A DNA stretch of 8,749 nucleotides from Phycisphaerales bacterium UBA4658. GTDB lineage: Bacteria; Planctomycetota; Phycisphaerae; Phycisphaerales; UBA1924. Positions within the stretch are counted from its first letter, which is position 1. The number at the start of each line of letters is the position of its first letter. A model generated the notes under the pieces. That model worked only from the letters and a program-made list of their open reading frames with translations. It was not told the origin of the DNA and ran no database searches. Below are positions 1,951 to 8,023 of this stretch, piece after piece. The stretch is taken from the NCBI GenBank assembly GCA_002405485.1, contig DHLW01000169.1, positions 1 through 8,749 of the forward strand. The letters run 5' to 3'. A program made the position numbers and the translations under genes.

Positions 1951-1957
1951 AATGGAC

Positions 1958-2695
1958 ATGAAGATCAAGACGAGCATTGTTTCTGTGAGCGTGATGGCCG
2001 CTTTGAGCGCTGTCGCATCGGGTCAGACGTACACGACCGTCAACCCCCCGCCGTCGGGCGAGAAGAGCCACGCTCAGATCCTGCGGGATCTGTACGGCTC
2101 GACATTCACGATGACGTCCAACGGGCGTGACTATGTGGGCGGAGCGGTGACGGCGCAGCGGCTTGCCGACGCGGGCGCCGGCGGACCGACCTCGCTCTCC
2201 TCGGGCACGGTGGGCGCGGTCGACTCGATCTGGTCGGGGGAGAGCACGTTCCTGGTCACCGCACGGGCCAAGTTCGCGGCGGACCGATCGCAGTTCGGGT
2301 ATTTCGACGACACGCTGGCGACGCCGACGTTCCAGTCGCTGTTTGACACGGGCACGATGAACTCCGAGCGCTCGGTCACCTTGACCGGGCCGTTCCGCTG
2401 GGCGATCAAGAATCTCAGCCGCAACACCCTGTGGACGAGCAACCCGGGAGACAACAACGGGCTGGGCTCATTCTCGAACCGGACGTTCGACCAGCTCACG
2501 ACGTACGCGATCGATCGCCCGGAGAAGACGGGCATGGAGTGGGTGCTGTTCTGGGAAGATCGCATGAAGGGCGAGCATGCGGACTATGACTTCAACGACG
2601 CGGTCATCGCGATCACGGCGCAGCCGATTCCCGCGCCGGCCTCGGCGGCGCTCGTCGGGCTCGGCGGGATGCTCATGCTCCGCCGCCGACGCTGA
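1958..2695 (+). CDS. Secreted DUF4114-like protein with PAP-type PEP-CTERM anchor
   Basis: The 245-residue product starts MKIKTSIVSV and has a classic signal peptide with a probable cleavage near residues 20-22 (AVASG/QT). The middle is rich in Ser, Thr, Gly and Asp, as in extracellular beta-rich proteins. Residues about 194-220 contain WVLFWEDRM followed by ADYDFNDAVIAI. This is the aromatic, Asp-rich closing motif of DUF4114 domains, thought to bind calcium. The last 22 residues form a sorting signal: PAPASA, a short hydrophobic Gly/Leu helix and a terminal RRRR. This matches the PEP-CTERM layout, with PAP in place of PEP. Such proteins are expected to be processed by an exosortase and displayed or shed at the cell surface; no exosortase gene is in this window. 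The upstream open frame (from 1802) is probably not translated, because the signal peptide begins at 1958. Confidence 0.85.
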   Translation: MKIKTSIVSVSVMAALSAVASGQTYTTVNPPPSGEKSHAQILRDLYGSTFTMTSNGRDYVGGAVTAQRLADAGAGGPTSLSSGTVGAVDSIWSGESTFLVTARAKFAADRSQFGYFDDTLATPTFQSLFDTGTMNSERSVTLTGPFRWAIKNLSRNTLWTSNPGDNNGLGSFSNRTFDQLTTYAIDRPEKTGMEWVLFWEDRMKGEHADYDFNDAVIAITAQPIPAPASAALVGLGGMLMLRRRR

Positions 2696-2746: not shown

Positions 2747-3547
2747 ATGAGTTCCACCGTGCACGTGGGGGCGCTGGTTCCCGGGCGGCTTGCCCAGTGG
2801 CTGGCGCTCCCGCACGACAACCCCGACTTTGCCGTCACCCCCGACGAGCTCGCGCTCACGATCGAGCGCCTTCGCGCCACGCCGATGGCTCCTCCACGCC
2901 CGGTGCTCGTGCTTGCCGGGTACCGGGCGTGGCGCATCATGGTCTCGCAGGTCGCCCGGCGGATGCATGAGCTGGTCGGCGGGCCGGCGGACATGTTCGA
3001 GCCCCTGGCCTATCCGCATTGCGGCGATCTGGACCGGATCGCGCGGCTCGTGGTTCGGCATGTCGAACGCACATGGCCCAACCCCGAGCCGCACCGCACC
3101 ACCGAGATCGACGTGATCGGGGTCTCCATGGGCGGGCTGGTCGCTCGGCTGGCGGCGCAGTTGCCCTTGGAAGACGGTCAAAAGCGGCTGCGCGTCGCCC
3201 GCCTGTTCACCCTCGGAACCCCGCACAATGGCGCGATCCTCGCGGGGAAGGTCGCGCTCGATCGTGCCGCCAAGGACATGCGGCCCGGCTCGGCGTTCCT
3301 GGATCGCCTGAACGCCGCGCTCCCGACGGCGCGGTATGAACTGGTCTGCTATGCCCGACTGAACGATCGTTGGGTCGGCGCGACCCGGAGCGCCCCGCCC
3401 GGGCGCGAGCCTATCTGGGTCAGCGGCACGCGCGTCTTCAGCCATGTCACGATCACGACCGACGATCGCATCCTCGCCGACGTCGCGCTGCGACTCCGCG
3501 GCGAGACGCCCCTGGCCCGACGGGCAAGCCGGCCTCCGATGGATTGA
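2747..3547 (+). CDS. Alpha/beta hydrolase, lipase/esterase-like
   Basis: The 266-residue product has no signal peptide and is probably cytosolic. After strand PVLVLAGY (52-59) comes the nucleophile elbow GVSMGG (125-130) with Ser127, then FTLGTPHNG (154-162), a motif shared by lipases and PGAP1-like esterases. Asp207 in NDRWV and His233 in FSHVTI sit where the acid and the His of the triad are expected. The family hydrolyses ester bonds of lipids or small acyl substrates; the substrate here is unknown. The N-terminal 50 residues look like a separate helical cap. The gene lacks a ribosome site and may be leaderless. It ends 12 nt from the stop of the TraB-family gene on the other strand, so the two are convergent with almost no spacer. 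A long minus-strand frame over the same DNA has no recognisable motif and is a shadow. Confidence 0.85.
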   Translation: MSSTVHVGALVPGRLAQWLALPHDNPDFAVTPDELALTIERLRATPMAPPRPVLVLAGYRAWRIMVSQVARRMHELVGGPADMFEPLAYPHCGDLDRIARLVVRHVERTWPNPEPHRTTEIDVIGVSMGGLVARLAAQLPLEDGQKRLRVARLFTLGTPHNGAILAGKVALDRAAKDMRPGSAFLDRLNAALPTARYELVCYARLNDRWVGATRSAPPGREPIWVSGTRVFSHVTITTDDRILADVALRLRGETPLARRASRPPMD

Positions 3548-3559
3548 TCGGTCGGCGGG

Positions 3560-4990
3560 CTATTCCGCAGGCACTCGCTTCTCCGCACGCTTGAGCTCTC
3601 GCTGCAGCGCCTGCCGGATCGAACTCCGCATGGACTCCATCTGGCGACGCTCGGCGGGATTGCCCGGCATGTTCACGACGATCGCGTCAAGCCACTCCAC
3701 GCCGGCCTCGCGATAGCCCAGCGCGGCGAGCCCCTCCTCGAGCCCGGGCATGTGCGCCCCGCCGTAGATGATCCCGACCGACTTGACCCCGGGCTCGTTC
3801 TCGATCACCGAGCGAAGATCATCCAGCACCACCTCGTTACGGTCGTGCAGGATGACGCTCATGGTCTTCTGCATCCCCGGGGCGGCGGCCAGGAACCTGT
3901 CGGCGTCGTTGAGCACCTCCAGGAGCATGAGCTTGCCGATCGTCTGCATGCCCGGCATCAAGCGCATGAATCCCAGCATCAGCTTGGCGACGCCCGCCTG
4001 AAACGACGACCCGTCGAGCATCTTGAAGATCTGGTCCGGATCCGAGCCCGAGGAGCTCAGCCGTTCCTGCACCTGATCGATCGACAGGTCGCTGTTGCGC
4101 CAGTTTGGCAGATCGTGGTTCATCACGTCGAGCTGAAAGACCAGCCCAAGGGCCCGGGCCAGCTCGTGCTGCAGCCCCCGGTCGTCGGCATCCGGAAGGT
4201 CCGAAGGGCGGATGGGCTTCTGTGCGCTCAGCAGGATGTCCTCCGCGGCGCCCTCACCGCCGACGGCGCCGTCGGAGCCGAGACTCGTGATTTCCAGCTC
4301 GCCCCAGCGCCGTGCCGCGGGCCGACTGGCCTGATTCGGTTCGGACGCCGCATCCGACGGCTCGGCCTTCGGAATCGAGGCCGGCTTGGCTGCATACACA
4401 AACCGCGTTCCCCAGGCGTCGGCGGCCATGAGGTCGAAGTAGGTTCTGTACTTGCCGTCGAGCCCCGCCTGCAGGGCCTCCAGCGACTCGGGCAGGGCGC
4501 CGGCGCGGCGCTCGTGCTGCCGGGCGGCGATCGCCAGCAGACGCATACGCATCCTGGTGCTCTTCACGCGCGAGGCATCGTCATCGGCCGTCTTCAGCGC
4601 GTGCTCGGGCCGACCCGTGCCCGGCGGCTTGACGCCCTCATAGAGCACCACATCCTGATTGTCCAGCAGTTGCTGCAGGCGGTCGTAGAAGGGCTTGTCG
4701 CCGACGTGCACCGCGGCGCACATCGTGATCGACGGGCCGGGCGCTCCGACGCGCTCGAATCGCCGAACGGCCATTTGCAGCGTCACGCTCTGCAGGTGCT
4801 TGCCGTCGCCGCCGCGGTCGTCGATGGTCCGGAGATAGCGGTCGTCTCGATCCCGCTCGATCGCGCCCGCGGGCTGGGCCGTCGTCGAGGGGGCGGAGTC
4901 GGTCTCCGGCCCGGCCCAGGCGTTTGACGCGAACGCCAGCAGCGACGCCCCAGCCAGGGACCCCGCCGCGAGGAATCGGTGCAGATGCAT
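3560..4990 (-). CDS. Exported TraB/GumN-family protein with inserted GspG-like domain
   Basis: The 476-residue product begins with a signal peptide, MHLHRFLAAG to about NAWA/GP (cut near 26). The first TraB half holds AAVHVGDKPFYDRL (His95, with Ala replacing the Gly of the usual GxxH) and VVLYEGVKP (Glu118). Residues about 143-257 look like the C-terminal domain of type II secretion pseudopilin GspG: helix with GALPESLEAL (164-173), ADAWGTRFVY (190-199) and SLGSDGAVGGEGAAEDI (236-252), including both Asp positions used for calcium in GspG. The TraB fold then resumes with ARALGLVFQLDVMNHDLPNW, RNEVVLDDL (384-392) and IIYGGAHMPGLEEGL (His413). No pilin N-terminal helix is present. TraB relatives include Tiki-type proteases and pheromone-shutdown proteins, so a periplasmic metal-dependent hydrolase is possible. 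The start is chosen because GGAG lies 8 nt upstream of this ATG but only 2 nt from the earlier one at 4996. Confidence 0.85.
   Translation of the reverse strand: MHLHRFLAAGSLAGASLLAFASNAWAGPETDSAPSTTAQPAGAIERDRDDRYLRTIDDRGGDGKHLQSVTLQMAVRRFERVGAPGPSITMCAAVHVGDKPFYDRLQQLLDNQDVVLYEGVKPPGTGRPEHALKTADDDASRVKSTRMRMRLLAIAARQHERRAGALPESLEALQAGLDGKYRTYFDLMAADAWGTRFVYAAKPASIPKAEPSDAASEPNQASRPAARRWGELEITSLGSDGAVGGEGAAEDILLSAQKPIRPSDLPDADDRGLQHELARALGLVFQLDVMNHDLPNWRNSDLSIDQVQERLSSSGSDPDQIFKMLDGSSFQAGVAKLMLGFMRLMPGMQTIGKLMLLEVLNDADRFLAAAPGMQKTMSVILHDRNEVVLDDLRSVIENEPGVKSVGIIYGGAHMPGLEEGLAALGYREAGVEWLDAIVVNMPGNPAERRQMESMRSSIRQALQRELKRAEKRVPAE
4232..4564 (-). other. GspG-like domain inserted inside the TraB-family protein
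   Basis: This segment encodes residues about 143-253 of the TraB-family protein. In order it shows a helix ending in GALPESLEAL, the loop-strand ADAWGTRFVY, a variable Pro/Ala/Ser stretch of about 25 residues, and SLGSDGAVGGEGAAEDI. These match the order and spacing of the soluble GspG domain (GRYPTS-like helix end, DPWG-like turn, SLGADG..GGEG...DI calcium loop). The flanks match consecutive parts of TraB, so it is an insertion and not an end-to-end fusion. The boundaries are estimates. Confidence 0.7.
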
Positions 4991-4998
4991 GATCATGA

Positions 4999-7373: not shown

Positions 7374-7474
7374 TTTTCGCTTGCCAGTGCGGAACACATA
7401 CGGTGAAATACGCACGCGGACCGCGTTCGTCCGCGCGTCGTCGGACCGACATCCTGTTCTCAGGGCTGCGATTC

Positions 7475-8023
7475 ATGAATCTCTCTTCGCGTTCCGCGTC
7501 CATGGCCTTGGCGTACCAGTTGTTTTTGTACCGCAAGCCCCTGCATCCTGAGATCATGCAGCTCAAGGGACGAAAGGTCTTGTCGCACGGGCGATACGAC
7601 CTGGAGGCCTGGATTTCCGCGGGCGGGCACATGCTCCGGTTTCGTCATGGGTCGTTTTCCTGCTGCGAGCTGCTGACCGACCAGGATGACCGATTGCCGG
7701 TGGACGGGGCGGTGACGGGTTTTCCCTGTTCCGGCGAGCATGAGTTCGAGCATCGCTTCGGAGCCGAGAAGGTCGTGTACACCACCAGCATCCAGACAGA
7801 GAACCTGAGCGAGAACCTGTATCGCTCGACCTATGACGAGATGCTGGACTACGCCCGGCAGACCGAGGCCCTGACCCACAAGTGGGCGGATGATCAGGGT
7901 CGCAGGTGCCTGTCTCTTCTGGATCTGCAGCGCTTGAGCAAGGAAGTGCACTGCCAGGGGTATCACCTCGTGGCCGGGACGGGGCTGGTGCTGCGAACCC
8001 AGACGATCTTCCAGCACGTGTGA
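7475..8023 (+). CDS. DUF2617-family protein
   Basis: The 182-residue product matches DUF2617 in length and layout as I recall the family: LAYQLFLYRKPLHPE near the start (12-26), a Tyr-x-x-x-Trp-Ile strand followed by GHML (51-54), TTSIQTENLSENLY (103-116), and the closing LVLRTQTIF (171-179). No catalytic residues are known to me and the biochemical role is undetermined. It has no signal peptide and is probably cytosolic. Three starts are possible: GTG 7403, ATG 7475 and ATG 7502. ATG 7475 is chosen because AGGG (7462-7465) lies 9 nt upstream, and the family-like sequence begins soon after; the residues from 7403 are Arg-rich and not family-like. ATG 7502 would give 173 residues and cannot be excluded. 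The gene is divergent from the HEAT gene. Its last 31 coding bases recur with three mismatches at 8328-8358. Confidence 0.75.
   Translation: MNLSSRSASMALAYQLFLYRKPLHPEIMQLKGRKVLSHGRYDLEAWISAGGHMLRFRHGSFSCCELLTDQDDRLPVDGAVTGFPCSGEHEFEHRFGAEKVVYTTSIQTENLSENLYRSTYDEMLDYARQTEALTHKWADDQGRRCLSLLDLQRLSKEVHCQGYHLVAGTGLVLRTQTIFQHV
7988..8018 (+). repeat. Repeat copy A: coding 3' end of the DUF2617 gene
   Basis: This 31-bp segment encodes VLRTQTIFQH in the DUF2617 product. It matches 8328-8358 at 28 of 31 positions in direct orientation. Two of the three differences are silent third-base changes and the third changes Gln to Glu. Confidence 0.7.

Follow-up and report, generated by a model that had tools for sequence, protein, structure and literature searches.

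A GspG-type pseudopilin head inserted into a TraB-family protein of Planctomycetota

Results

Architecture of the window protein

The window, a stretch of 8,749 nucleotides from the draft genome of Phycisphaerales bacterium UBA4658, encodes a likely exported protein of 478 residues (P0001; positions 3560..4996, minus strand) in which the head of a GspG pseudopilin lies between the two halves of a TraB core. This TraB-GspG-TraB architecture is established by computation, from the open reading frame list, Pfam and homologues. The frame opens with a methionine at 4996 or 4990 and stops at 3560. Its first 28 residues (4913..4996, minus strand) read as a hydrophobic, signal-peptide-like N-terminus that ends NAWA/G and lacks a prepilin motif. 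A hydrophobic N-terminus is shared by 107 of 110 aligned proteins, and the prepilin motif was found in none of 121 homologues and at none of 80 loci. Export, proposed in a preliminary description of this DNA, is therefore likely from the signal-like N-terminus, and the same description was right that the N-terminal helix of a pilin is missing.

The window protein scores 32.2 bits (E 1.2e-7, HMMER; cut-off 21) against the Pfam model for GspG (T2SSG). The preliminary description had set beforehand that it should be abandoned if the inserted segment failed to match T2SSG, and this match upholds it. The TraB assignment is less direct. The Pfam TraB model (PF01963) gave no match to the window protein at E<=1, whether the insert was cut out or not, and it is assigned to TraB through its family, in which 66 of the 110 aligned relatives match TraB and 108 match T2SSG. 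When ten relatives were scanned singly both domains were reported in each, the best TraB stretch following the head in nine and preceding it in one. The TraB model had no match in the window's own genome and, across the class, hit just 12 genomes out of 198, and so misses most of these proteins. Excision of the insert as a means of raising the TraB score had little effect and is neutral (P0039, 36.9 bits cut and 35.5 uncut; P0025, 33.9 and 33.4; P0106, 27.9 and 28.8). Because the window is one contig of a draft genome in 203 contigs, a frame joined by misassembly, or a chance resemblance, was considered; this explanation is negligible, as 39 of 61 genomes match head pieces together with TraB parts and many separate assemblies hold the same architecture.

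The first half of the TraB core (residues 52-126; 4619..4843, minus strand) carries H97 and E120, and the second half (residues 272-445; 3662..4183, minus strand) carries R386-N387 and a GX2H site (G412..H415), GX2H being the motif name for TraB-family histidine sites; the halves were placed by alignment, Pfam and hhalign. H97, E120, R386, N387, G412 and H415 are each present in 110/110 aligned insert-bearing proteins, and H97, E120, R386 and H415 also in 30/30 insert-free sisters, so that the two GX2H-type histidines and the glutamate characteristic of TraB/TIKI proteins are invariant. A set of two histidines and two glutamates is described in the portion of PMC6254334 consulted; at the position of the further RRSP glutamate, two residues before the first histidine, the family has Ala, Val or Met and the sisters Ala or Val. 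Among the segments compared, column entropy was lowest in the region where the chain re-enters the core (residues 272-310; 0.99). By analogy with its TIKI and Ere relatives, the window protein is likely to be an active hydrolase acting on a peptide or ester.

A large insert-free sister family fixes the insertion point. The alignment used for it held 73 sequences from the 120 listed of 1497 found, and 66 of these 73 match Pfam TraB. The spacing between P124 and Q288 is 128-175 residues in insert-bearing proteins (median 145, n=110) and 31-51 in the sisters (median 33, n=73), and hhalign joined the two families at E 1.4e-40 with a gap at the insertion point. The head enters 7-14 residues past E120, where a beta strand reaches its C-terminal end.

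Features kept and changed in the inserted head

The inserted head spans residues 134-260 (4217..4597, minus strand). A profile of the 110 aligned sequences matched solved GspG/EpsG chains (2kep, E 1e-10; 3gn9, E 2.4e-9) over the head and the helix end, which, with the Pfam match, bears out the earlier claim of a GspG soluble domain in mid-protein; the domain is complete. D193, W195, S238, D242 and D253 correspond to PulG D92, W94, S113, D117 and D125 (counted on the full-length PulG chain of 5wda), and the first three are invariant (110/110). In the calcium loop (residues 238-254; 4235..4285, minus strand) the ligand positions are retained as D242 in 109/110 and D253 in 107/110, the remainder being Glu, together with the glycines G246 (107/110) and G247 (109/110); both aspartates are present in the window protein. 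At 68 of 80 loci the turn and loop passed a pattern test, and inspection by eye of the other 12 found the DxW turn in all. Among them, the first loop Asp is replaced by Asn in L062 and L068, and the loop is not recognisable in L072, L096 and L102. With its ligands kept, the head is predicted to bind calcium.

Other positions separate the inserted heads from true GspG. For this comparison, 24 true GspG sequences were used, drawn from the 30 loci of the best hits in the class (7 not extracted) plus one from the window's own genome (L021), a sample that leans to canonical GspG. The position of PulG E44 is Ala or Gly in 103 and Glu in none of the 110 inserted heads, whereas 16/24 true GspG have Glu, and the DPW motif occurs in 1/110 against 22/24. 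Thr147 is found in 107/110 inserted heads, where true GspG has Ala in 22/24; Arg150 in 109/110, where true GspG has Asp in 17/24 and Arg in none of 24; and Arg152 in 98/110 against 2/24. The two arginines form an R-M-R stretch specific to the insert on the GspG helix (residues 150-152; 4541..4549, minus strand). The position of PulG D48 is Arg in the window protein and acidic in 56/110 relatives against 14/24 true GspG, so that some of the filament signature persists. In the parts of PMC6692295 consulted, the PulG helix lies in the filament core, E44 and D48 make contacts to R87 and R88 on other subunits, and the calcium-free protein was solved with a misfolded C-terminal region. We read the pattern as that of a head which keeps its fold and a putative calcium site while its helix would now face the TraB core. 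Apart from the residues of the fold and the calcium site, conservation is lower in the insert, with mean column entropies of 2.12 against 1.48-1.55 in the core.

AlphaFold modelled the inserted segment as an ordered, separate GspG fold, and neither as disorder nor as an ordinary part of TraB, either of which would have told against the preliminary description. In this model (pTM 0.83) the head blocks had pLDDTs of 76-98 and the linker blocks 81-92; the predicted order of the linkers would suit a fixed arrangement of head and core. The model of an insert-free sister showed the core elements in the same order, with the GspG elements absent. Foldseek returned nothing at E<=0.001 for the window model, the best match being EpsG (E 0.033, prob 1.00); ChaN, Ere and RRSP appeared in the list of the sister model only. 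By sequence, the sister-family profile matched none of the PDB chains.

Distribution and variants

A search of 5.8 billion proteins returned 163 homologues (120 listed), many with precomputed TraB and T2SSG annotation. The alignment described above comprised 110 of 121 proteins; the 11 left out all bear the insert and include the window protein itself (P0002) and a protein with an altered loop (P0105). The insertion, for which the preliminary description had called for a survey, recurs among planctomycetes: 40 of 61 genomes, the window's own included, match the protein, 39 of them with head parts. Most named carriers go under the labels Phycisphaerales, Phycisphaerae or Planctomycetota; three of the 80 loci bear a Pirellula label and one a Kiritimatiellae label. 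Across the phylum, the family profile matched 233 of 294 genomes; among the matches listed, near-full-profile matches came from 9 genomes, and most of the others covered either the two halves or just the GspG columns. Seven entries among the 120 listed are misannotated, bearing the name "type II secretion system protein GspG". Pirellula-labelled and related members (L036, L040, L041 and L047) have a C-terminal extension and reach 855-885 residues; P0109 is extended by TPR repeats.

The window's own genome encodes a second, strongly diverged TraB-GspG paralogue (G000:C73; L023:1198-2487, plus strand). It keeps both histidines and the glutamate, and has neither the asparagine of the RN motif nor the arginine pair (Asn150, Gln152). 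Close kin of this paralogue were found in none of 101 genomes.

One gain and one loss of the head

In a tree of the TraB columns (35 of the 110 insert-bearing rows, the paralogue and 30 of the 120 sisters), a single change separates insert-bearing from insert-free proteins with support of 99/98 (98% of bootstraps), the paralogue forming the longest branch. A tree of the heads (28 of the 110 inserted heads, the paralogue and 25 true GspG, L022 being used here only) separates the inserted heads from true GspG with support of 100/100.

One member of the head-bearing group has no head. This protein, from genome G013 of the same bacterial family (L199:468-1553, minus strand), has 361 residues, and the gap between its two matched pieces is too short for a head. 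A second core tree, from which the paralogue was left out and to which G013, L062, L068 and L096 were added, nests it within the head-bearing group next to L068 (100/98). It retains H97, E120, R386, N387, G412 and H415, so that the head was dispensable in that lineage. It also carries the WRNSD signature (W299, R300, N301, S305 and D393) that marks head-bearing members, and these residues are accordingly not tied to the head. A candidate salt bridge between Arg150 in the head and D393 in the core lost support, since D393 is kept without a head. Given the nested position of G013, the history with the fewest events on the trees made is that the head was gained once and later lost once.

Genomic neighbourhood

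No fixed operon surrounds the gene among the loci compared. Its convergent neighbour in the window (2747..3547, plus strand) encodes a PGAP1/DUF676-like alpha/beta hydrolase by Pfam, and hydrolases of this kind turn up close to the TraB-GspG gene at 23 of the 80 loci, with varying positions and orientations. Elsewhere in the window, 1952-2695 (plus strand) encodes a protein with a signal-like start and a PEP-CTERM-like end; its DUF4114 and Pfam PEP-CTERM matches are below cut-off, and the NCBIfam PEP_CTERM match is just above (16.5 against 16 bits). A gene at 7403-8023 (plus strand) matches DUF2617 weakly (E 8e-4, short of the cut-off), and a look-alike, compared by eye, lies near the TraB-GspG gene in 13/80 loci.

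In one group of loci, the gene sits in a block ordered dxs-ispA-exbB-TraB/GspG-prepilin-hydrolase-ispG, in which an ExbB/TolQ-like proton channel gene immediately precedes it on the same strand (e.g., L084:7112-7852, plus strand). An ExbB/TolQ-like gene is present in 14 of the 80 loci, on the same strand in 13. Prepilin genes occur immediately downstream in 13 of 78 loci and next but one in 6 of 73; elsewhere they make up 9 of 763 genes. However, 12 of these 19 prepilin loci hold the dxs block, where the pilin gene is on the opposite strand, and as members of one syntenic block they are not independent.

Discussion

The function of the inserted head

Pseudopilin heads are familiar as components of secretion filaments, and active sites of folds such as TraB lie at the C-terminal ends of beta strands. 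Here the head is inserted directly after the strand that bears the catalytic-type glutamate E120, and because it leaves the core past this residue at the C-terminal strand end, it would be positioned over the mouth of the active site. There it might act as a calcium-stiffened cap, lid or substrate guide that controls access, with R150 and R152 fastening it to the TraB core. The retained calcium ligands, the changed E44 position and DPW motif and the gained arginines fit this best. We give a calcium-stiffened cap beside the active site of a likely exported TraB/TIKI hydrolase a chance just short of even, lowered from slightly better than even because G013 lost the head. The preliminary description had named gating, calcium switching and docking to a secretion pseudopilus as possible roles; of the three, gating or capping next to the active site appears to fit best, with the loss of the whole head in G013 counting against it. 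Also against it are the three loci whose loop is not recognisable and the two with Asn for the first loop Asp, the D48 position where it is still acidic, the missing arginine pair of the paralogue, the lower conservation of the insert and the lack of a Pfam TraB match in the window protein.

Docking of the hydrolase, through its head, to the pseudopilus of type II secretion, or to some other pilus, perhaps with pilins as substrates, would account for the enrichment of downstream prepilin genes and for the D48 position that is still acidic in about half of the relatives. A soluble mitochondrial GspG head also binds itself (Kd 216 nM), yet is monomeric on gel filtration, according to the section of PMC8134430 consulted. 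The machinery is at hand, as a secretin and T2SSF are found in 61/61 genomes and in the window's own genome one contig carries both GspG and a secretin; being universal, it is uninformative, and a correlation between the gene and secretion machinery could tell nothing apart. The weight of the single dxs block among the prepilin loci, and the loss of much of the pseudopilin signature (the E44 position, a contact site for R87/R88 in the PulG account, and DPW), weaken docking, which we consider unlikely. The near-invariant loop residues and the misfolding of calcium-free PulG would also suit a switch, with the binding or loss of calcium setting the order of the loop and thereby the activity of the hydrolase. 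The gene persists, however, without a recognisable loop (3/80 loci) and without the whole head (G013), which speaks against obligatory switching, and steady extracellular calcium would make the site structural and not regulatory; such a switch seems quite improbable.

That the head is a tolerated passenger with no catalytic role is suggested by G013, which lost it with its catalytic residues intact and whose nearest relative in the tree, L068, has a decayed loop, by the higher column entropy of the insert, and by the multiplication of GspG heads in another likely exported protein (see below). Against this, a head is present in 110/110 aligned proteins and, by pattern or by eye, at 80/80 fetched loci, although head-bearing queries favour such members, and the near-invariant T147 and R150 are new, being absent from true GspG at these positions. 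We hold a mere passenger to be improbable, and retain the calcium-stiffened cap as the working interpretation.

GspG heads outside pili

Elsewhere in the phylum, in one family (coded f47), two proteins of 452 and 476 residues carry four GspG heads in a row behind a signal-like N-terminus, with no pilin helix (L162:103-1461, minus strand, T2SSG E 4e-37; L161:64-1494, minus strand, T2SSG E 2.4e-33; four stretches each). The four-head protein has 16 matching database entries, a copy of the query included. These proteins support the view of the GspG head as a module outside pili. More tentatively, and with the balance somewhat against it, Planctomycetota may have domesticated the pseudopilin head as a calcium-clamped module of secreted proteins, namely the TraB/TIKI cap and the four-head strings; if so, the pilin fold would serve in recognition, in the periplasm or outside the cell, apart from any pilus.

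What is at hand in many planctomycetes is a pseudopilin head within a likely enzyme, with the calcium site kept and much of the filament signature gone. The large insert-free sister family and the head-less G013 protein are natural controls, which makes the effect of the added domain directly testable. Naming such proteins GspG could also inflate counts of secretion systems.

Comparison with known systems

The preliminary description knew of no protein with the TraB-GspG design, and no account of it was found in titles and abstracts of open-licence papers. The TraB/PrgY/GumN proteins (PF01963) of the TIKI/Ere/ChaN superfamily are without the GspG head of about 125 residues that is here inserted after the glutamate motif. 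GspG/PulG/EpsG (PF08334) have a prepilin cleavage site and an N-terminal helix; the inserted head has neither, differs at the E44 position and DPW, carries Arg150 and Arg152, and is embedded in another protein. The nearest parallels are partial. The PERCAL inserts of bacterial animal-type peroxidases likewise place a GspG-like calcium loop inside an enzyme domain, but in the passages of PMC3396595 consulted the 11-residue motif alone is inserted, whereas here it is the whole head. In heteroloboseans, jakobids and others, mitochondrial GspG likewise joins a GspG head to extra sequence; there, as far as the consulted section of PMC8134430 describes it, the transmembrane helix is kept and the extra domain is C-terminal, whereas the planctomycete head is flanked on both sides.
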